A stretch of 64,000 nucleotides of DNA from Spirochaetota bacterium (lineage in GTDB: Bacteria > Spirochaetota > UBA4802 > UBA5368), in the NCBI GenBank assembly GCA_004297825.1, contig SCSX01000090.1:1-64000 (forward strand). Direction: 5' to 3'. Both the position numbers and the translations under genes were made by a program. This document shows, in pieces, positions 22,911 to 32,749 of this stretch; position 1 is the first letter of the stretch, and the number at the start of each line of letters is the position of its first letter. Under the pieces are notes generated by a model. The model had not been told where the DNA came from and ran no database searches. It saw nothing but the letters and a program-made list of their open reading frames with translations.

Positions 22911-23630
22911 ATGAAACCAATCGCTTCGAAGATGATCCGTATTGCCTTCACCGCTTTCCTCGCCTGGGGATGCTCTCTCCCCTGCTCCGCCGCCGACCTC
23001 GTCACCGTGGCATCGTTTTCCACCTCGGTGGAGGACCAGGACGAAAACGTGCGGCGCAACATCCACATCGCGTGCGGGAAGCTCGACGGCATCGTGATCG
23101 GGCCCAAGTCGTCGTTCAATTTCAACGACACGGTGGGTGAGGCGACGGCGAAGAACGGCTTCGTGAACGGGCGCGTCCTCTACCGCGACGAGGTGCGCTA
23201 TGAGCCGGGCGGGGGGCTCTGCCAGGTTTCGTCCACGCTCTACAATGCGCTCCTGCTCGCCGGATGCGCGATCGTGGAGCGGCACCGCCACATGCAGCCG
23301 GTGACCTACGTACCGCTGGGCCTGGACGCGACGATCAAGTTCGGAAAGAAAAACCTGGTGATAAAGAACCCTTACGACCGGAAGCTCGTAATCCGCGCGG
23401 AGGAAAACGACAAGACGCTCACCATCCACATAAAGGCCGATTCGGCCCTCCCCCACCGTTACGAGATCGTCACCGAGGACGAGGAGCTCGAGGTCCCCAT
23501 CGTTACGGAGAACAGGCGCGTCCGCAGCGGGGTCACCGTCCAGGTCTACCGGCAGAAATACTCCGGGAACAAGCTTATCGAGAGCTTCCTTCTTTACAAG
23601 GATTACTACCCGCCGGTCTACGTGAAATGA
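22911..23630 (+). CDS. Secreted VanW-family protein
   Basis: A 239-residue protein with a signal peptide (core MIRIAFTAFLAWGCSLPCSA, cleavage near S-A-A-D). The VanW domain is clear: V-A-S-F-S-T-S, D-E-N-V-R-R-N-I-H-I-A, F-N-F-N-D-T-V-G-E, E-P-G-G-G-L-C-Q-V-S-S-T-L-Y-N-A and V-P-L-G-L-D-A-T. VanW domains occur in vancomycin-resistance loci and in YoaR-like envelope proteins next to peptidoglycan-binding modules; their chemistry is not established. The start at 22911 lacks a strong ribosome binding site; ATG 22932 is an alternative. Its stop overlaps the AMMECR1 start, and an alpha-2-macroglobulin and a SpoIID-transpeptidase gene follow. Confidence 0.85.
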   Translation: MKPIASKMIRIAFTAFLAWGCSLPCSAADLVTVASFSTSVEDQDENVRRNIHIACGKLDGIVIGPKSSFNFNDTVGEATAKNGFVNGRVLYRDEVRYEPGGGLCQVSSTLYNALLLAGCAIVERHRHMQPVTYVPLGLDATIKFGKKNLVIKNPYDRKLVIRAEENDKTLTIHIKADSALPHRYEIVTEDEELEVPIVTENRRVRSGVTVQVYRQKYSGNKLIESFLLYKDYYPPVYVK

Positions 23631-24241
23631 ACCGCGCCCCCGTGCTCTGCGCCCTGCTCGCCTGCGCGACCCTTGCAATGGTGCCCCTCGACCCGGGGAT
23701 GCGCCCCGCGGGGGACACGCTCGCGGAATGGGCTCGCTTTTCCCGCACCGCCCGGGCCCGCGCGCTCGTCGAATGGGCGCACTGCGTCATGCGCGGGGAG
23801 CTTGCGGGGCCGCGGTGCGAGGCCGTCATCCCCGGCGGCACGCCCCCGTTATACGGCAGTGCGGGGGTGTTCGTCACCCTGGTGCGCGCGGGGAAGGTCC
23901 GGGGGTGCTTCGGCGCGTTCCATCACGCCTCCGAGAGCCTCGAGGCGATACTCCGCGACTACATAAGCGGGGCGCTCCGGCGGGATCCCCGTTATGCGCC
24001 GCTTGAACCCGGGGAGCTCGACGGCGCCTCGGTGATCATCACCGTCGCCGGGATGGAGTTTCCCGTGGACGACCTCGCTGCGGTGGACCTCGCGCGCAGC
24101 GGCCTCGTCTTCTCGATGGACGGCGGCGAGCGGCTTCTCTTCGTGCCCTCCGAGATTAAAAGTATTGACTATCTGAAAAAACTCGTTAGGATGCAATCGG
24201 TCGTTCAGATCACGGCATTTCGCGCGGTCTCCATAAGGTGA
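23627..24241 (+). CDS. Secreted AMMECR1-domain protein
   Basis: A 204-residue protein with an N-terminal hydrophobic export segment (A-P-V-L-C-A-L-L-A-C-A-T-L-A-M-V) and an AMMECR1 domain (residues 45-200). The family core G-V-F-V-T-L-V-R-A-G-K-V-R-G-C-F-G-A-F is intact. AMMECR1 proteins are usually cytoplasmic and of unknown function; some are fused to MEMO1-like or radical SAM partners. An exported copy beside envelope genes is unusual. ATG overlaps the VanW stop (ATGA), so translation is coupled. The alpha-2-macroglobulin gene starts 55 bases later. Confidence 0.82.
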   Translation: MNRAPVLCALLACATLAMVPLDPGMRPAGDTLAEWARFSRTARARALVEWAHCVMRGELAGPRCEAVIPGGTPPLYGSAGVFVTLVRAGKVRGCFGAFHHASESLEAILRDYISGALRRDPRYAPLEPGELDGASVIITVAGMEFPVDDLAAVDLARSGLVFSMDGGERLLFVPSEIKSIDYLKKLVRMQSVVQITAFRAVSIR

Positions 24242-24296: not shown

Positions 24297-27200
24297 ATGA
24301 AAAAAATATTCGCGGCGTCCCTCATCCTGTGCGCGGCGTCCCTCGCGATCGCCTGCGGCGTGCCGGGCAGGCAGGTGCTCCCCGACGGACGCGCCGTCTA
24401 CGCGAAGCAGGACGGTGCAGCGCTACAAAAGAAAAACGTCATCGAAGGTCACGTGCGGTATCAACACTACGAAAACGACCGCTATCACACCCTGCCGGTG
24501 AAGGGCGCCGTGGTCGAGATCAAGAACGCGAACATGGGCATGGGCTATTACCGCTGCGAAACCGACGGCAACGGCTATTTCCACGTCGAGGACTTCATCA
24601 CACAGGTCCGGTACGTGATCGAAGTACGCGCGGAGGGTTTCGTGACCTACCGGCACACACAGCATATCCAGGCCGGCACCTACGATATCCAGCTCACCCC
24701 CGAGGCGATAATCTCCGGAACCGTAAAGGATTCGGCGGGGGGGCCGATGCGCGATGTCGAGGTTCGACTCAACCATCCCCATGACGACGCCGAGTCCGGC
24801 GAGGAGGAGGAACCCGGCCGCGCGAAGCCGAAACCCTTCGTGACCGCGACCGATGCGCGCGGCCTCTACCGGTTCGACAAGCTCACGAGCGGAAGCTACG
24901 CGGTGACCTTCCAGAAACAGGGCTACATCACCGAGACCGCGCGCCTGCAGCACGTGTCCAGCGGCGAAAAATTCAACCTTCCCATGCAGATGCTTCGCCC
25001 GGCGCGTCTTTCGGGAAGGCTCTCTATCGAGGGAATAGACGCCCCGGCGATCAACGTGGACGCGACGCTCGCCTCCGGAAAAATCGCGCACTCGACCCAG
25101 AGCTACCAGGACGGGAGCTACCAGCTCGAGGATGTGAAGCCCGGGACCTACAAGCTCTCGCTCTCGCACCAGGGCTTTTTCAAGATCGAGACGCCGGTGA
25201 TTACCGTGCGCGAGGGCGACGACCGTGCGCACACCGATTTCACCATGCGCCCTAAAAGCCCGGAGCTCGAGGTTTACTCGAACCGCTACACCTTCGCGCC
25301 CGGCTCCAAGGTCGAGTTCAGCCTCAAATCGTTCAGGCTCGAAAAGGTGAAATTCACGGTCTACCGCGTTCCCGTCGCGGTGTTCTTACGGGGCAAAACA
25401 CAGCCCGGGGCCGTGGACCCCGCGACGTCGGGCTTCAGGGCGGAGCGGCAGTGGGACGATACCATACGCGAGTTCGAACCCTACGAGTGGCGCTACCAGT
25501 CCGTCGAAATGAACGAGCCCCTCCCGCCCGGCGGTTACTGCATCGAGGTGACCGGCGCCGACAAGGTCACCAGCCGCAAGTTTTTCAGCGTGACCTCCGT
25601 GGGCGTGGTCGTGAAGCGCTCGCGCGAATCGGTCTTCGCGTACGTGACGGACCTCGTCACCAACGCGCCCGTGCCCGGCGCGGCCATAGCACTCTTCGAC
25701 AACACGCCGGAGAAGCAGGAGTACCGCGAGTCCGAGTACGCCTACAAGCCCCCGGAGCGCATCGAGGACCTTCCCGTCGCCGTCGTGCAGAAGGGCGCGA
25801 CCGACGTGACCGGCGTGTACCACGCGCCGCTCAAATCGGACATGCACGTCTCCATCCTCGCCGTGGGAACCGACGGCAGCTACTCGTTCTGCAGCACGGG
25901 CTCGCCCAACCAGTTCGCGCGCGAGGAGAACAAGTTCTTCATCTATACCGACCGTCCCGTGTACCGCGCGGGCGACAAGGTGCATTACAAGATCCTGGGC
26001 AAGCACCGCGCGGAGCGCTTCGTGCCGCTGGGCCGGGACACGTACCATTACGAGATCCGCAATATCGACACCGACGACACCATAGATTCCGGGAGCTTCC
26101 CGCTCGACGAATGGGGAACCTTTCACGGCGACATCCAGCTTTCCTCCGAGGTGCGCCTGGGCGAATACGAGCTGCGCGCGGGGACGTCGCCCGACGACCT
26201 CTACGCGGCGGGGCGCTTCTACGTGGAGCAGTACCGCAAGCCCGAATTCAAGATCGAGCTCACCCCCACGGCAGCGTTCTTCACGAACGGCGACACCGCC
26301 GAGTTCAAGGTCGAGGCCCGTTACTTTTTCGGCGCGCCGCTCAAGGGGGCGCTCGTGCGCTACCGCTTCTACGAATCGCGCCTGCGCGACACCGACACCA
26401 CCTACTGGTGGGAGGAGGACTACGGGCGCAGCGAATCGTACAACAAGATCAAGCTCGAGGGCGAGAAGTACCTTGACGACAATGGGATCGCGTCCTTAAA
26501 GCTCCATTGCGGCGACTACCCCTACGACCGCGAGATCACGCTGGAGACCACCATCGTCGACAGCTCGAACGTGAGCATCACGAGCCGCGAGAGCGTGAAG
26601 ATCGGGCGGGGCGAGTACTACATAAAGATTAATCCCGCGCAGAACTTTTTCTCGGACGACGAGAAGAAGATCGTGCAGGTGAAGACGCTTGCGCACGACG
26701 GCAAACCCGTGAGCGCCCCCGTGGAGATCAAGGTCTACCGGTACGTGTGGAAGCCCTGGCAGCGCGTGTACGTGCACGACGCGAAGCCTGTGTTCGAGAA
26801 GAAGCTCACGACCGGTGAGAAGGGCACGGCCGAGCTCGAGCTTCCCGGGAAGCTCGACGTGTACGGCGAATTCGACATCGTCGCGACCGGGCGCGACAAA
26901 AAGGAAAACGTGATCAGCGCGAACCGCGTGGTGTGGATATACTCCAACTTCGGATACAAGATCGAATCGCGCTTCAAGAACCTGGAGCTCGCCGTGAACG
27001 ACGCGGAGCTGGAGAAGCCCGGCGAAATCACCTGCCTCCTCAAGAGCCGGTTCAACGACGCCTGGGTGTGCATCACCCTGGAGGGCAGGGACGTGTACGA
27101 GTCGCGCGTGGTAAAGATGACCGGCAATATCACCCCGGTCAAGCTCGACATCAAGGCGCGCTACGCCCCCAACCTGTTCATCACCGCGACCATGCAGCGC

Positions 27201-29696
27201 AACCGCGCCCTCTTCATGTCCTCGGCCGGGGTATCCATTCCCGATCCCGACACGGGGCTCACGATAGCGGTGAAGGCGGACCGGGAAAAATACCTGCCCG
27301 GGGACACCGTCAAGCTGGCCGTGAAGGCCGCCGATACCGCGGGGCGCCCCGTCCAGGCGGACATCTCGCTGGGCGTCGTGGACGAGGCCATCTACCAGAT
27401 CCGTTACGACCACACGCCGCGCATGCGCGACTTTTTCTATTCGAAGATTTCCAACTGGGTACTCACGAATTATTCCTACCCCATAACCATTCTGGCGGGA
27501 GCGGGAAAAGAGGGCAAGATCAAGGTACGCGAAAACTTCAAGGACACCGCGTTCTGGAAGCCGGACATACGTACCGGCGCGGACGGGAACGCCGAGCTCT
27601 CCTTCACGGTCCCGGACAACCTCACGACCTGGCGGCTCACCCTGCGCGGCCATGACAGGGAGGGGCGCGTGGGCGAAAAAAAGAGCGAGATCCTCGTGAC
27701 CCAGGACCTGGTCGCGCGCATCGGCAAGCCGCGCTTTTTCACCGAGGGGGACAGGCTCTCGCTCATAGGCATCGTGAACAGCAACACGGCGCGCGGCCTC
27801 GAGGCCGTCGCGACCGAGTTCAAGATGGACGGAACCGCGGTCTCCCCGGAGGAGAAGGCGAAGATCAGCCTTCCGGCGTTCGGGTCGGCCCGCGCGCACT
27901 ACCAGGTGCAAGTCCCCGGGAACAGGGAATCCGTCGACCTCTACTTCCAGGCGCGCGCCGATGCCGAGGCGAAGGACGCGCTCAAGCTCACCGTCCCCGT
28001 GCAGTCAAAGGGCGTGCCCTACAAGCTCTACGGCCTGGGGGATATGTCCGGGAATCGCGAGGTCACGCTTTCGCCCCTGGGCGCGACCGACGACTTCGAG
28101 TATCGGCCCGAGACCCTTACCATCACGGTGCACCCCGACCCGATCGCGCAGCTCATGCGCGCGTCGAAGTACCTCGCCGAGTACCCGTACGGCTGCGTGG
28201 AACAGACCATAAGCCGGTTCCTCCCGAACCTGGCCTTCAAGGCCCTGCTCGCGAAGCGCGGCATGAAGGACGTGCCGGTGGACCCGGAGCTGGACGCGAA
28301 GATCTCGGTGGGCATCCAGCGTATAACCCAGATGCAGAACGACGACGGGAGCTGGGGCTGGTGGAGCGGCGACCGCGGCAACGAGTTCATAACCGGCTAC
28401 GTGCTCTACGCGCTTCGCACCGCCAAAGGCCTCGGTTATCCCATCGACGGGGAAAGCGCGCGCCAGGGCCTGGAGGCCGTCGAGCGCATGCTGCAAAACG
28501 AATCGCTTCTTTCGCCGGACGGCAAGGCGTACCTGTTATACATCTATGCCTTTTACGGGAAATGGAGCAAAACGGCGTACGCCGCGCTCGCTAAGGAATC
28601 CGCGCTCTCGAACTACGCGCAGGCCTTCCTCGTGCGGGCGATGGCGCTCGCTCCCGGAATCGCCTCCATCCCCGCACAGGACCGCGCGGCGATCGCGAAG
28701 CTCCTTCCGGAGCAGGTGGCGGCATTAAAGAACCGCCAGCAGACGGACGGCAAGGGCGCCTACTGGGCCCCGGGTGAAAACCCCTGGGCATGGCAGGGCG
28801 CCTCGACCGAAATGAGCGCCCACGTGCTCGCCGCGCTCGTCGAATCGGGCGACACGGGGACGATCCCCGCCTCGATCGTGGCCTCGATCTGCAAGAGGAT
28901 GCGCGGCGGCGCGTGGACGAGCACCAAGGAGACCGCGCACGTCTTCTTTGCCTTCTGCAAATACCTCGAGGCGCGCACGGGTGAACTCTCGTCCGCCGGG
29001 AACATCACCTTTTCCCTGGAAGGAAAGGACATCGCGACCCTCGCCTATGACACGAAGACCATGCGTGACTGGGAAAAGCTCTCCGTGACGGTCAAGCTCC
29101 CGGGGTCGGCGGGGAGCGCGTTCAAGGTCGCCGCGCGCGGCAGCGCCGGTCCCGACGCGCTCTTCGAGCTCGCGCTCAACGGGAACCTCAACTTCAAGGA
29201 CACGGGCTTCCTCTCCCTTTTCAAGAGCGAGGACCGCAGCGTCCGCTCGCTCGAGAACGGCATCTCGCTCGCGCGCCGGTATTACTCGGTGATGCGCGTG
29301 CGCGACGCCAACAACAGCGAGTACTTCGTACCCGAGGAGATCGGGGACAGGAACGCGCTCAAGGTGGGCGACGAGCTTCTGGTCAAGATCAAGTTTCGCG
29401 CCCAGGACAACTTCGAGTACCTGGTGCTCGAGGACTACCTGCCCAGCGGTTTCGAGGTCGTGATGAAGAACGCCTACGGCGAGTACCAGCCCTTTTCCCA
29501 CGCCGAACAGTGGGACAACCGCATGGTGTTCTTCTTCACCGGGCTTGAAAAGAACCGGGTGTACGAGATCGCCTACATCATGCGCGCGGAGCTTCCGGGC
29601 GAGTTCCTGGCCCGGCCCTCGCGCATGGAGTGCATGTACGAGCCCTCCATACAGGGATGGGCATCTCCCTCCCGGTTCGTGATCCAGAAGAAGTAG
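24297..29696 (+). CDS. Alpha-2-macroglobulin family lipoprotein with thioester
   Basis: A 1799-residue lipoprotein (lipobox S-L-A-I-A-C, Cys20). Residues 35-325 hold three carboxypeptidase-regulatory-like beta domains, an N-terminal addition; macroglobulin domains follow (F-I-Y-T-D-R-P-V-Y-R-A-G-D near 545), then the A2M family segment W-K-P-D-I-R-T and V-P-D-N-L-T-T-W-R (near 1085). The thioester motif C-V-E-Q is intact at Cys1300-Gln1303 within Y-P-Y-G-C-V-E-Q-T, followed by the helical complement-like domain and a C-terminal receptor-binding-like domain. Bacterial members trap proteases in the periplasm, and in E. coli YfhM pairs with PBP1C. Here the next gene, two bases on, is a SpoIID-transpeptidase fusion. 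Confidence 0.93.
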   Translation: MKKIFAASLILCAASLAIACGVPGRQVLPDGRAVYAKQDGAALQKKNVIEGHVRYQHYENDRYHTLPVKGAVVEIKNANMGMGYYRCETDGNGYFHVEDFITQVRYVIEVRAEGFVTYRHTQHIQAGTYDIQLTPEAIISGTVKDSAGGPMRDVEVRLNHPHDDAESGEEEEPGRAKPKPFVTATDARGLYRFDKLTSGSYAVTFQKQGYITETARLQHVSSGEKFNLPMQMLRPARLSGRLSIEGIDAPAINVDATLASGKIAHSTQSYQDGSYQLEDVKPGTYKLSLSHQGFFKIETPVITVREGDDRAHTDFTMRPKSPELEVYSNRYTFAPGSKVEFSLKSFRLEKVKFTVYRVPVAVFLRGKTQPGAVDPATSGFRAERQWDDTIREFEPYEWRYQSVEMNEPLPPGGYCIEVTGADKVTSRKFFSVTSVGVVVKRSRESVFAYVTDLVTNAPVPGAAIALFDNTPEKQEYRESEYAYKPPERIEDLPVAVVQKGATDVTGVYHAPLKSDMHVSILAVGTDGSYSFCSTGSPNQFAREENKFFIYTDRPVYRAGDKVHYKILGKHRAERFVPLGRDTYHYEIRNIDTDDTIDSGSFPLDEWGTFHGDIQLSSEVRLGEYELRAGTSPDDLYAAGRFYVEQYRKPEFKIELTPTAAFFTNGDTAEFKVEARYFFGAPLKGALVRYRFYESRLRDTDTTYWWEEDYGRSESYNKIKLEGEKYLDDNGIASLKLHCGDYPYDREITLETTIVDSSNVSITSRESVKIGRGEYYIKINPAQNFFSDDEKKIVQVKTLAHDGKPVSAPVEIKVYRYVWKPWQRVYVHDAKPVFEKKLTTGEKGTAELELPGKLDVYGEFDIVATGRDKKENVISANRVVWIYSNFGYKIESRFKNLELAVNDAELEKPGEITCLLKSRFNDAWVCITLEGRDVYESRVVKMTGNITPVKLDIKARYAPNLFITATMQRNRALFMSSAGVSIPDPDTGLTIAVKADREKYLPGDTVKLAVKAADTAGRPVQADISLGVVDEAIYQIRYDHTPRMRDFFYSKISNWVLTNYSYPITILAGAGKEGKIKVRENFKDTAFWKPDIRTGADGNAELSFTVPDNLTTWRLTLRGHDREGRVGEKKSEILVTQDLVARIGKPRFFTEGDRLSLIGIVNSNTARGLEAVATEFKMDGTAVSPEEKAKISLPAFGSARAHYQVQVPGNRESVDLYFQARADAEAKDALKLTVPVQSKGVPYKLYGLGDMSGNREVTLSPLGATDDFEYRPETLTITVHPDPIAQLMRASKYLAEYPYGCVEQTISRFLPNLAFKALLAKRGMKDVPVDPELDAKISVGIQRITQMQNDDGSWGWWSGDRGNEFITGYVLYALRTAKGLGYPIDGESARQGLEAVERMLQNESLLSPDGKAYLLYIYAFYGKWSKTAYAALAKESALSNYAQAFLVRAMALAPGIASIPAQDRAAIAKLLPEQVAALKNRQQTDGKGAYWAPGENPWAWQGASTEMSAHVLAALVESGDTGTIPASIVASICKRMRGGAWTSTKETAHVFFAFCKYLEARTGELSSAGNITFSLEGKDIATLAYDTKTMRDWEKLSVTVKLPGSAGSAFKVAARGSAGPDALFELALNGNLNFKDTGFLSLFKSEDRSVRSLENGISLARRYYSVMRVRDANNSEYFVPEEIGDRNALKVGDELLVKIKFRAQDNFEYLVLEDYLPSGFEVVMKNAYGEYQPFSHAEQWDNRMVFFFTGLEKNRVYEIAYIMRAELPGEFLARPSRMECMYEPSIQGWASPSRFVIQKK

Positions 29697-29698
29697 GG

Positions 29699-31768
29699 AT
29701 GCGCGCCGCCGCGCTCCTCCTGCTCGCAAGCCTGCTTCCGGCGCCCGCATGGGCCGGAAGCGACGTTGCGCGCAATGGGGGGCCGATACGCGTCTCCATC
29801 CTCTCCCGGCACCTGAAGTCGATGGCCGCGGGCGAGCTGGATCGAATCCTGTTTGAACTTCCGGATAACGTCTCCTGCGTCCGCGCGGACGGCGGGACGC
29901 GCGTCCCGGTGAAAACTATCGAGATCGCCCACCGCGACGGCGCCTTCCGGGTCCTCCTGGACGGGGAAGCGGCCGGCGATCGCGTGAGCCTTACGATCGA
30001 GGGCGCCCCCGGACTCACGGTCGGGGTGCGCTTCAGGGACGATTCGAGGCGCTACCCCCTTCCCCTGCGCATCGACGCATCGCCCCGGGAAATCTCGATC
30101 GTCGCGAGCGAAGAGCCCGAACGCTACGCGCGCGACAGCGCCGCCGCCGAATACGGCCCCCAGCCCCGATCGGGCGCGGAGGCGCTCGAAGCGCTCTCCC
30201 TCCTCGTCCTCGCGCGCGCGGAGCGCGCGCGCGCCCGCCCCGTACACGGGAACGCGCACGTCTGCGACCTGAGCCACTGCCAGGTCTACCGGGGGCGCCT
30301 CGACCGCGCCGACACGAGTATCGGCGAAGCAAATTTCCCGTGGCGCATCGACGCGACCGCGCTTTTTTGCGAACCCGTGTTCCACGCGCGCTGCGGGGGC
30401 GCGACCCTGGGCGACGGCGTCTTCAGCCTGGGCGAAAAGCGTGCTCCGGGGGTCCGCGACCGGCTGCTTGGCGAGGGCGTCTACCTTTGCCGGAACGGCC
30501 GGGAGGGATGGACCGCCGCGCTTCCGGCCGGCGAGCTCAGGTCCATCCTGGGCGGGGACACGGGCGAGATCGCCGCGATCGTCTACGACCGCGCGGCGTG
30601 CCGGCTCGAAATTCGAACCGACAGGGGACCTCTCGAGTTCGCGCCCGAGGATTTCCGCCTCAGGATCAACCGGGTCAAGGGGTGGAGTTTTTTGAAAAGC
30701 AACAATTACGAGGTTCGAAAGGGCGACGACGCGGGTGGCGCGGCGTACCTGTTTTCCGGGCGGGGCCTGGGGCACAACGCGGGACTGTGCCAGCACGGCG
30801 CCCTCGCGCTCGCGATGCGCGGCTTTTCACGCTACGAAATTCTATGCCATTACTTTCCCGGGATCGGTTTTGTACGGGGCGCGCACGAACGCGAGCCGGA
30901 CAGTCCCTATCTCTCTTACGTCGGTTTTTCGCTCGTAACGGGGGAAGTCCTGGACGCGCGCTATGCGCAGATACTCTCCCGCAGCGTCGCACCCGGTTCC
31001 GTCTTCAAGCTGCTGGTTTCGCTCTACCTCGTCGCGCGCCGCCCCGACCTCGCGCGCGGTTATCGCTATACCTGCGAGGGCGCGAGCGCCGATACGCACA
31101 TGCCCGAAAAATGCTGGAAGCCGGGCGGGCACGGCGACACCGATCTCTCCCGCGCGATCTCGTGCTCGTGCAATCTCTACTTCGCCTCGCTCTACGCGCA
31201 CATCGACCGCGCCGATTTCGCGTCATTCATCGCCTCCCTGTCCCGCCGGCCGGGAATCGCCCTCGCGCTCCCGGACATAGACGGGGACGCCGGATTCGCG
31301 CGCCTGCTGTGCGGCCTCGATTACCGCGTGAAGCTGACCGTCCGCGATCTCGTGAAGGTCGCGATGACCGTCTCTCCCGTCGCGGTATCGGACCGCCCAG
31401 TCGATGAATTCCGGCGATCGCTGCCCGCGGGCGGCCTGGAGGTCATCCGCGCGGCCCTGGCCGAGACGGTGCGCACGGGTACGGCATCCGGGGAGAGCGA
31501 ACCGTACGGAAGCGCGCGGGAGAATATCGAACCCCTTCGCCGCGGGCCCCTGGAGGGCGACGACGAGCCCGGGGGCATGGTCCCGTCGTCATCGTGCTGG
31601 GGGAAAACCTCGACTGTCATGGCCGGAACGAACCGGTACCTTTCCTATGGATTGTTCCTGGGGGGCGACAGGGACAGGGGGCTCATAACCATCGTAGCGC
31701 GGGGGAACGGCCACCTGGCCGCCCGGTGGGGGCTCAGGATTTTAGGACGGGAACCCCCTGCCCGTTGA
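29699..31768 (+). CDS. SpoIID domain fused to a penicillin-binding transpeptidase-like domain
   Basis: A 689-residue exported protein (signal peptide 1-20, ending A-P-A-W-A-G). Residues 30-390 form a SpoIID region, with the hallmark G-R-G-L-G-H-N-A-G-L-C-Q-H-G-A near 355-370; SpoIID cleaves denuded glycan strands as a lytic transglycosylase. Residues 410-680 look like a penicillin-binding domain: S434-V-F-K437 (S-x-x-K), S490-C-N492 (S-x-N) and K636-T-S638 (K-T-G/S), in the right order. Many cysteines (about 18) are unusual for a periplasmic enzyme. GTAGGG precedes the ATG, two bases after the alpha-2-macroglobulin stop. It takes the place PBP1C has beside YfhM in E. coli. Domain calls are from motifs; activity of each half is untested. 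Confidence 0.82.
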   Translation: MRAAALLLLASLLPAPAWAGSDVARNGGPIRVSILSRHLKSMAAGELDRILFELPDNVSCVRADGGTRVPVKTIEIAHRDGAFRVLLDGEAAGDRVSLTIEGAPGLTVGVRFRDDSRRYPLPLRIDASPREISIVASEEPERYARDSAAAEYGPQPRSGAEALEALSLLVLARAERARARPVHGNAHVCDLSHCQVYRGRLDRADTSIGEANFPWRIDATALFCEPVFHARCGGATLGDGVFSLGEKRAPGVRDRLLGEGVYLCRNGREGWTAALPAGELRSILGGDTGEIAAIVYDRAACRLEIRTDRGPLEFAPEDFRLRINRVKGWSFLKSNNYEVRKGDDAGGAAYLFSGRGLGHNAGLCQHGALALAMRGFSRYEILCHYFPGIGFVRGAHEREPDSPYLSYVGFSLVTGEVLDARYAQILSRSVAPGSVFKLLVSLYLVARRPDLARGYRYTCEGASADTHMPEKCWKPGGHGDTDLSRAISCSCNLYFASLYAHIDRADFASFIASLSRRPGIALALPDIDGDAGFARLLCGLDYRVKLTVRDLVKVAMTVSPVAVSDRPVDEFRRSLPAGGLEVIRAALAETVRTGTASGESEPYGSARENIEPLRRGPLEGDDEPGGMVPSSSCWGKTSTVMAGTNRYLSYGLFLGGDRDRGLITIVARGNGHLAARWGLRILGREPPAR

Positions 31769-31864: not shown

Positions 31865-32749
31865 ATGAAGCTGAGAAATATCTCCGTCACCGCGCTCTGC
31901 CTGGCAGTCTGTGTTGCCCTGCTGGGGCTGTTCTCCGTCGTCGCGACAGTAAACGCCCAGGACGCCGCGAAGGACGCCCCCAAGGACGCCAAGGAAGTCA
32001 AGGCGGCCGATAAAAAGGAAGAAGCCCCCAAGGAAGTCACGGGCTGGCGGGTGAAGGATTTCAAACCCTATATACAGGCCATGCAGGAGCTGCAGAAGCT
32101 CAGCAAGGACTATTCCGAGAACATGCTGAAGCTCGCGATCGACGAATACTCGACGGGACTCGACATCCTCGAGGACATGGAAAACGAGGTGACCAAGCTC
32201 GTCACCGCCAACAAGGAAAAGAAGAACCTGAACGAACGGTGGTACTGGCAGGAAATCGACCGGAAGAACCAGGAAGAGCGCCAGGTCGCGAAACTGAAAT
32301 ACGACGCCAAGCTTAAATCGGTCACCTATTTCACCCGCGCGATCAACCACATGGACAATGTGCAGTTCCAGGAGGTCAGGAACAACCCGAAGTTCCAGAC
32401 CTTCCAGAGCCGGCTGTACCAGGTGTACGTCTCTTCCCAGTACGACCTGTACAACTTCAAGCCTTGCATCCCCATACTCGAGCGTTATATCGCTTTGAAC
32501 GAGCAGAATAAAAAGGACGTGTGGGCCTACAAGTACCTTTCGAGCTGCTACGGCTACCTCGAAACGGTGGTGGGCAAGTCGAGCCAGGCGCCCGAGGCGA
32601 CGCAGCTTCAGTACAAGCAGTTCAAGAACCGCTACATGCTGCAGGCGGTGGAAATCGAGTTCGGCGCGGAATCGATCGAGTACAAGCATCTGCGGGAAAT
32701 CGTGGAGATGGACGAGAAGAAATCGGAGCGCTTGAACGACTTCAAGTAA
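31865..32749 (+). CDS. Periplasmic helical (TPR-like) protein of unknown function
   Basis: A 294-residue exported protein. A signal peptide (core V-T-A-L-C-L-A-V-C-V-A-L-L-G-L-F-S, cleavage near V-N-A-Q) is followed by a 30-residue Lys/Asp/Ala linker (A-A-K-D-A-P-K-D-A-K) and then amphipathic helices to the end. Residues 150-230 read like TPR hairpins (Y-F-T-R-A-I-N-H-M and L-E-R-Y-I-A-L-N-E). No family recognised; TPR-type periplasmic proteins act in envelope assembly and in spirochaete flagellar collars, so a scaffold role is possible. Single-gene unit with its own hairpin terminator at 32777-32806. Confidence 0.75.
   Translation: MKLRNISVTALCLAVCVALLGLFSVVATVNAQDAAKDAPKDAKEVKAADKKEEAPKEVTGWRVKDFKPYIQAMQELQKLSKDYSENMLKLAIDEYSTGLDILEDMENEVTKLVTANKEKKNLNERWYWQEIDRKNQEERQVAKLKYDAKLKSVTYFTRAINHMDNVQFQEVRNNPKFQTFQSRLYQVYVSSQYDLYNFKPCIPILERYIALNEQNKKDVWAYKYLSSCYGYLETVVGKSSQAPEATQLQYKQFKNRYMLQAVEIEFGAESIEYKHLREIVEMDEKKSERLNDFK

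Follow-up and report, generated by a model that had tools for sequence, protein, structure and literature searches.

A protein of 689 amino acids encoded in the Spirochaetota carries a SpoIID domain and a penicillin-binding transpeptidase (TP) domain in one exported chain, and it is the genomic partner of a thioester alpha-2-macroglobulin (A2M). We think it probable that this fusion protein is a soluble periplasmic peptidoglycan enzyme, acting as the sacculus-remodelling partner of the A2M. In what follows 'the window' is the whole stretch of DNA analysed, 64,000 nucleotides of contig SCSX01000090.1. Its relevant features are as follows.

22911..23630, + strand: VanW-like exported protein (NCBIfam vanW-gen, 5.5e-22; orthologues match PF04294 at about 2e-43)
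23621..24241, + strand: AMMECR1-domain protein with an N-terminal signal sequence (PF01871, 1.8e-16)
24297..29696, + strand: A2M, probable lipoprotein, 1799 aa (Pfam MG2, A2M, A2M_BRD, TED and bMG10)
28191..28205, + strand: A2M thioester motif G-C-V-E-Q (residues 1299-1303, with Cys1300)
29699..31768, + strand: SpoIID-TP fusion protein, 689 aa, an open frame
29699..29755, + strand: signal peptide of the fusion, residues 1-19 (MRAAALLLLASLLPAPAWA, followed by GS), from inspection of the sequence by eye
29780..30883, + strand: SpoIID domain, about residues 28-395 (TIGR02669, 9.9e-14; model matches 5i1t and 4rwr)
30149..30151, + strand: codon of Glu151, which by its invariance and the aligned region corresponds to the catalytic Glu101 of Clostridioides difficile SpoIID
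30245..30280, + strand: H183, C189, H193 and C194, a putative zinc site by likeness to H134/C140/H145/C146 of C. difficile SpoIID
30758..30778, + strand: G-R-G-L-G-H-N, the C-terminal SpoIID signature, residues 354-360
30896..31753, + strand: TP domain of the class B penicillin-binding protein (PBP) type (PBP2/SpoVD), about residues 400-685, from profiles, PDB sequences and the model
30998..31009, + strand: S434-V-F-K437, nucleophile motif SxxK (all 31 TPs compared, fused and separate, have this Ser and Lys)
31166..31174, + strand: S490-C-N492, motif SxN (invariant in fused proteins, the Asn nearly invariant overall)
31604..31612, + strand: K636-T-S638, motif KTG (K and T invariant, third position Ser, Ala or Gly)
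31865..32749, + strand: exported protein, 294 aa, matching no Pfam family

The fusion gene has an in-frame GTG upstream at 29630; the signal peptide begins at the ATG at 29699, 2 bp past the A2M stop codon. Beyond the signal peptide, no further membrane helix is evident on inspection by eye. NCBIfam profiles identify both domains, SpoIID_LytB (TIGR02669, 9.9e-14) over residues 344-390 and PBP2 (2.7e-10) over residues 425-512, and a search of PDB sequences with the fusion gives PBP2 at 3.4e-6 and SpoIID at 3.2e-4. Both domains score under the cut-off with Pfam. Curated SpoIID thresholds lie above the scores of the fusion, which are 16.6 bits for PF08486 (cut-off 23) and 51.9 for TIGR02669 (83.3); a SpoIID relative encoded by a separate gene (locus L109) exceeds the latter threshold at 204.2. 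PF08486 matches just 3 of 21 fusion orthologues, and its sole match in the whole genome is a different SpoIID gene. Automatic annotation would therefore overlook the fusion. By fold and residues its SpoIID half is a divergent relative of SpoIID/LytB that falls beneath the curated scores, and the family assignment of the fusion is secure.

Glu151 is invariant in 22 fused orthologues and likewise in the SpoIIDs encoded by separate genes. In the same 22 proteins C189 and C194 never vary, H183 hardly does, and either His or Cys stands at position 193. The arrangement H183-x5-C189-x3-H193-C194 aligns at the C. difficile zinc site with the C189-H193 spacing one residue shorter, and to judge from this likeness the SpoIID half may bind zinc. 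C. difficile SpoIID requires Glu101; its zinc ligands are C140 and H145, and H134 and C146 also contribute to binding (PMC6221140). In the GxGxGH signature, G354, G356, G358 and H359 are invariant among the fused orthologues.

These orthologues are 32-42% identical to the window protein, and throughout them no change is seen at S434, K437, S490, C491, N492, K636 or T637, nor at C459, C472 and H478 of a PBP2-like C...CW..GHG segment. The original prediction had read the SpoIID signature and the three TP motifs in a single frame; all four were located where it claimed, and Ser434, on whose conservation that prediction hung, is present in every orthologue. Co-occurrence of short motifs by chance is ruled out by the 22-row conservation, by the profiles and by two structure models.

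The first of these models, built with AlphaFold from the mature fusion and 21 sequences (pLDDT 86.7, pTM 0.89), folds as a SpoIID domain and a PBP transpeptidase. Searched against the PDB with Foldseek, it matches C. difficile SpoVD (2.9e-10), SpoIID 5i1t (1.1e-9; TM 0.66 by target), SpoIID 4rwr, and structures of PBP2 and PBP3. The second, of the C-terminal 300 residues alone, has pLDDT 91.0 and pTM 0.91, and its best 50 structure matches are all PBPs or peptidoglycan transpeptidases. Fold comparison thus recovers both of the predicted folds, the C-terminal one as a class B PBP transpeptidase, and signal peptide, profiles and models agree on a single exported protein that carries both domains with their motifs intact.

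It is very improbable that the C-terminal half is a class D beta-lactamase or a beta-lactam sensor and not a peptidoglycan transpeptidase. The fold is common to class D enzymes, and the separate TP at L109 has weak class D matches (3.7e-6), but that same protein matches PBP2/SpoVD far better (5.6e-37), a profile of 17 separate TPs matches class B PBP structures at 1.8e-44, and the best 50 matches of the C-terminal model are PBPs. The second motif of the fusion, moreover, is SCN and not the SxV of class D. Class D identity was rejected as a poorer match than PBP2/SpoVD. A separate 258-aa lipoprotein-like protein of the class D beta-lactamase type is encoded elsewhere in the same genome (G000:C29:13659-14255, L036). 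Another Spirochaetota family (f22) has small stand-alone TPs of the same subfamily, of 262-296 aa (L062:6450, L063:1844, L064:4219, L065:7308, L074:4103, L075:7693); on the stretches examined neither SpoIID nor A2M was found near them.

The fusion gene ends a row of four, VanW-AMMECR1-A2M-SpoIID/TP, whose products are all apparently exported, judging their N-termini by eye. The A2M has a lipobox-like Cys20 and the features of a type I bacterial A2M, namely a CxEQ thioester and A2M, bait-region and TED domains. Signal-like N-termini also occur in AMMECR1 orthologues (L041:15023-15649, L047:14683-15267 and others), and in many genomes of the order a signal-bearing AMMECR1 gene lies between VanW and A2M; to our knowledge AMMECR1-domain proteins are otherwise only cytoplasmic. 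The VanW family is a glycopeptide-resistance accessory, and here a VanW-like gene heads an A2M operon in a diderm bacterium. The exported protein at 31865..32749 recurs downstream of the fusion at 62-68% identity in L039, L047, L048 and L052, and this position is conserved only within the same family of genomes.

The fused relatives belong to uncultured Spirochaetota by a scan of GTDB genomes, and in a phylum-wide search full-length ones were found only in the order of the window. We sampled 46 genomes of that order and defined window-type A2M by 42% identity or more. Window-type A2M is present in 30 of the 46, and 25 of these 30 also have the fusion (one copy ending at a contig end); the fusion is in none of the other 16. 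This co-occurrence has a Fisher p of about 2e-8, a value that ignores the shared ancestry of related genomes. In 22 of the 25 the A2M gene lies upstream on the same strand, mostly overlapping the fusion gene or within about 220 bp of it; the gap is about 2 kb in L083 and L084 and about 0.36 kb in L087. In the domain trees all fused SpoIID domains group together (100/100), so a single fusion event suffices.

Several points count against a partnership. The VanW-AMMECR1-A2M set is present and unlinked to the fusion in three genomes (G195, G166, G216), and five have window-type A2M without a fused partner. Two of these five (G087, G219) have an operon with the separate genes, two (G207, G222) are about 70% complete, and in G139 and G087 unrelated genes follow the A2M. 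The fusion is moreover of single origin, while the co-occurrence statistic takes no account of shared ancestry.

Searches with profiles of the fused proteins turn up TP and SpoIID elsewhere as adjacent separate genes, and a profile of the separate SpoIIDs matches SpoIID structures at 1.6e-45. Such pairs lie near A2M in other Spirochaetota (L057, L058, L067, L069, L072) and in Myxococcota, WOR-3 and Sericytochromatia (L106, L108, L109, L114, L120, L122), which gives Rosetta-stone support to the partnership of fusion and A2M. The order is A2M-DUF2135-unknown-SpoIID-TP in L057 and L058; A2M-DUF2135-TP-SpoIID-HExxH protein in L067 and L069, with DUF2135 assigned there by sequence resemblance; and DUF1175-A2M-TP-SpoIID in WOR-3 (L109). 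In Myxococcota (L106, L114, L120, L122) A2M is followed by other genes, a DUF2135-like one among them, and then TP-SpoIID; in Sericytochromatia (L108) A2M is 2.5 kb downstream of TP-SpoIID. On the stretches examined, A2M was not detected beside TP-SpoIID in L071, L101, L103, L104, L112 and L121.

Other genes accompany these pairs. Beside SpoIID there is a small exported protein, HExxH-like or decayed (L067:3553-4293, L069:8401-9051, L057:5853-6587). The DUF1175 protein of L109 (2697-3278), of the YfaT family, matches NlpC/P60 weakly (0.007), which hints that YfaT may resemble peptidoglycan endopeptidases. In L104, L114, L120 and L122 (Myxococcota and relatives) an ORF of 500-570 aa with the look of a Ser/Thr protein kinase (IGRYxLxxKIGKGGMAEIFKA) comes directly before TP-SpoIID, an arrangement that would suit a kinase-controlled cassette.

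The recurrence near A2M bears on a different explanation, that the fusion is a general remodeller of septal or growing peptidoglycan and that its A2M neighbourhood reflects co-regulation of envelope genes and no functional partnership. Chlamydiales SpoIID homologues are active at the division septum (PMC6635528), the fusion is away from A2M in three genomes, and deletion of yfaQ, the Escherichia coli gene taken up below, gives wider cells without protease challenge and has phenotypic links to mepS, mepK and nlpI (PMC12282094). We nevertheless regard a general remodeller as rather unlikely, since TP and SpoIID occur near A2M in several phyla and in three gene arrangements, and since the fusion is never found in the order without window-type A2M.

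The same order has a second, distant A2M type. A PBP1C-like gene directly follows it at 11 examined loci (L132-L138, L140-L142, L149), so SpoIID and TP appear to occupy the place of PBP1C; in L066 the row is A2M-PBP1C-SpoIID.

In the reading that we prefer, a remodelling partnership with A2M, the A2M lipoprotein would trap an invading protease. The SpoIID domain would cleave glycan strands, as a lytic transglycosylase or a muramidase, and the TP domain, through an acyl-enzyme on Ser434, would re-crosslink or trim stems at the same place. Together A2M and fusion would edit or repair the sacculus at an envelope breach, the job of PBP1C for the better-known A2M type. We propose this repair role by analogy with A2M-PBP1C, for which protease trapping and wall repair have been put forward (PMC4498604) and are themselves unproven. 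The classical SpoIID substrate has stems already stripped by an amidase (PMC6221140), and no amidase that would make it is encoded beside the fusion or within it. Glycan cutting may yet be coupled to stem handling, since the Waddlia SpoIID, of Gram-negative type, cleaves intact peptidoglycan as a lytic transglycosylase (PMC6635528). The operon context, comprising A2M, the separate genes and the replacement of PBP1C, was missed by the original prediction and tells more about function than the fusion itself does.

The E. coli genes yfaA-yfaT-yfaS-yfaQ-yfaP encode DUF2138, DUF1175, A2M, DUF2300 (PF10062) and DUF2135 proteins, yfaS being a pseudogene in MG1655. We know of no assigned function for DUF2300, DUF1175 and DUF2135, partners of other A2Ms. 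YfaQ matches Pfam SpoIID at 7.2e-6, and independent profiles aligned with hhalign place a TP at residues 55-125 (prob 86) and SpoIID at 302-362 (prob 94). A profile of fused proteins only leaves the SpoIID half of YfaQ undetected, while Pfam SpoIID and the separate-gene profile detect it; a three-round profile contained YfaQ, and the score it gives YfaQ is left out. YfaQ keeps the Ser and Lys of SxxK and the Glu at the SpoIID catalytic position; it has SCG in place of SxN and KTW in place of KTG, and HEYLH at 520 near its C-terminus. In the TP tree YfaQ alone intrudes among the fused proteins; its branch is very long, and we treat the placement as an artefact. We conclude that yfaT-yfaS-yfaQ-yfaP is the same gene set and that YfaQ is a degenerate version of the TP and SpoIID proteins. 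HEYLH and the HExxH-like protein beside separate SpoIIDs are perhaps a third shared module, metallopeptidase-like by sequence.

The decay of part of the family would suit a protein that serves as a scaffold and catalyses little or nothing, its TP or SpoIID domain mainly holding A2M or binding peptidoglycan, much as MagB holds MagD in Pseudomonas aeruginosa, where MagD is stably complexed with Mag proteins (PMC5764988). A pure scaffold needs no such constraint as is seen on the catalytic residues, invariant or nearly so in fused and separate proteins, and we consider this explanation improbable. An equation of MagB, which has a membrane helix, with YfaQ was considered and not adopted.

The domain pair itself has been described before. 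A 2025 report on YfaQ (PMC12282094) reads it as a transpeptidase-like domain joined to a SpoIID-like one, in the opposite order, which corrects the original prediction in so far as that knew of no such described architecture. The main text of that report does not contain the word 'macroglobulin'. Our non-exhaustive search of the open-access literature found no report of a macroglobulin context for SpoIID/TP across phyla; for SpoIID and macroglobulin together it gave just an unrelated proteomics paper, and for a SpoIID-transpeptidase domain fusion it returned only a paper on C. difficile PBPs.

In the usual account a bacterial macroglobulin is a borrowed immune protein, and its partner is PBP1C. 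Recurrence of the trio in other phyla points to an overlooked cell-wall partner, in a gene set that spans Myxococcota, Spirochaetota, WOR-3, Sericytochromatia and enterobacteria. Tentatively, and with less confidence than for the fusion alone, we suggest that TP and SpoIID might be a second, unrecognised cell-wall partner of A2M across phyla, replacing PBP1C as a cut-and-reseal machine at breaches sensed by A2M. Its forms would be separate genes in either order, the spirochaete SpoIID-TP fusion and the decayed enterobacterial TP-SpoIID protein YfaQ. For the whole gene set, the fusion predicts penicillin binding, glycan cleavage and macroglobulin binding.

Among known systems, class B PBPs (PBP2/MrdA, SpoVD) have SxxK, SxN, KT[SAG], the C...CW..GHG segment and the fold in common with the TP domain of the fusion. 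They have a membrane anchor and an N-terminal pedestal, whereas the fusion lacks both and has SpoIID in the pedestal position; because a cleavable-type signal peptide and then a SpoIID domain precede its TP domain, it is a TP domain homologue and not a class B PBP. The SpoIIDs of Bacillus, Clostridioides and Waddlia share the fold, the catalytic Glu and G-x-G-x-G-H, and that of C. difficile has similar zinc-site residues, but unlike the fusion they have no fused transpeptidase, and those of Bacillus and Clostridioides are tied to sporulation and the amidase SpoIIP.

The A2M-PBP1C pair (E. coli yfhM-pbpC) is, as here, a thioester A2M lipoprotein with a peptidoglycan synthase/transpeptidase gene directly downstream; PBP1C has a glycan-making glycosyltransferase domain where the fusion has SpoIID, a glycan-cutting fold. 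The P. aeruginosa Mag operon likewise sets an A2M, the type II MagD, in a multi-gene periplasmic operon with complexed products (PMC5764988), but MagD, unlike the window A2M, has no thioester.

YfaQ resembles the fusion in being exported, in having TP-like and SpoIID-like domains in one chain and in lying beside an A2M gene, yfaS, and its DUF1175 (yfaT) and DUF2135 (yfaP) neighbours recur in TP/SpoIID/A2M operons. It differs in domain order, with TP first and SpoIID second, in its C-terminal HEYLH and in its decayed SxN and KTG motifs, and the YfaS A2M lacks the thioester motif, present as GCVEQ in the window A2M. The comparison is one of shared working and shared ancestry, not of family membership: assignment of the fusion to DUF2300 was rejected, as PF10062 matches neither the window protein nor any of 296 Spirochaetota genomes. 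Since the fusion keeps all catalytic residues, it can stand in, in readable form, for the kind of protein that YfaQ is derived from or similar to.
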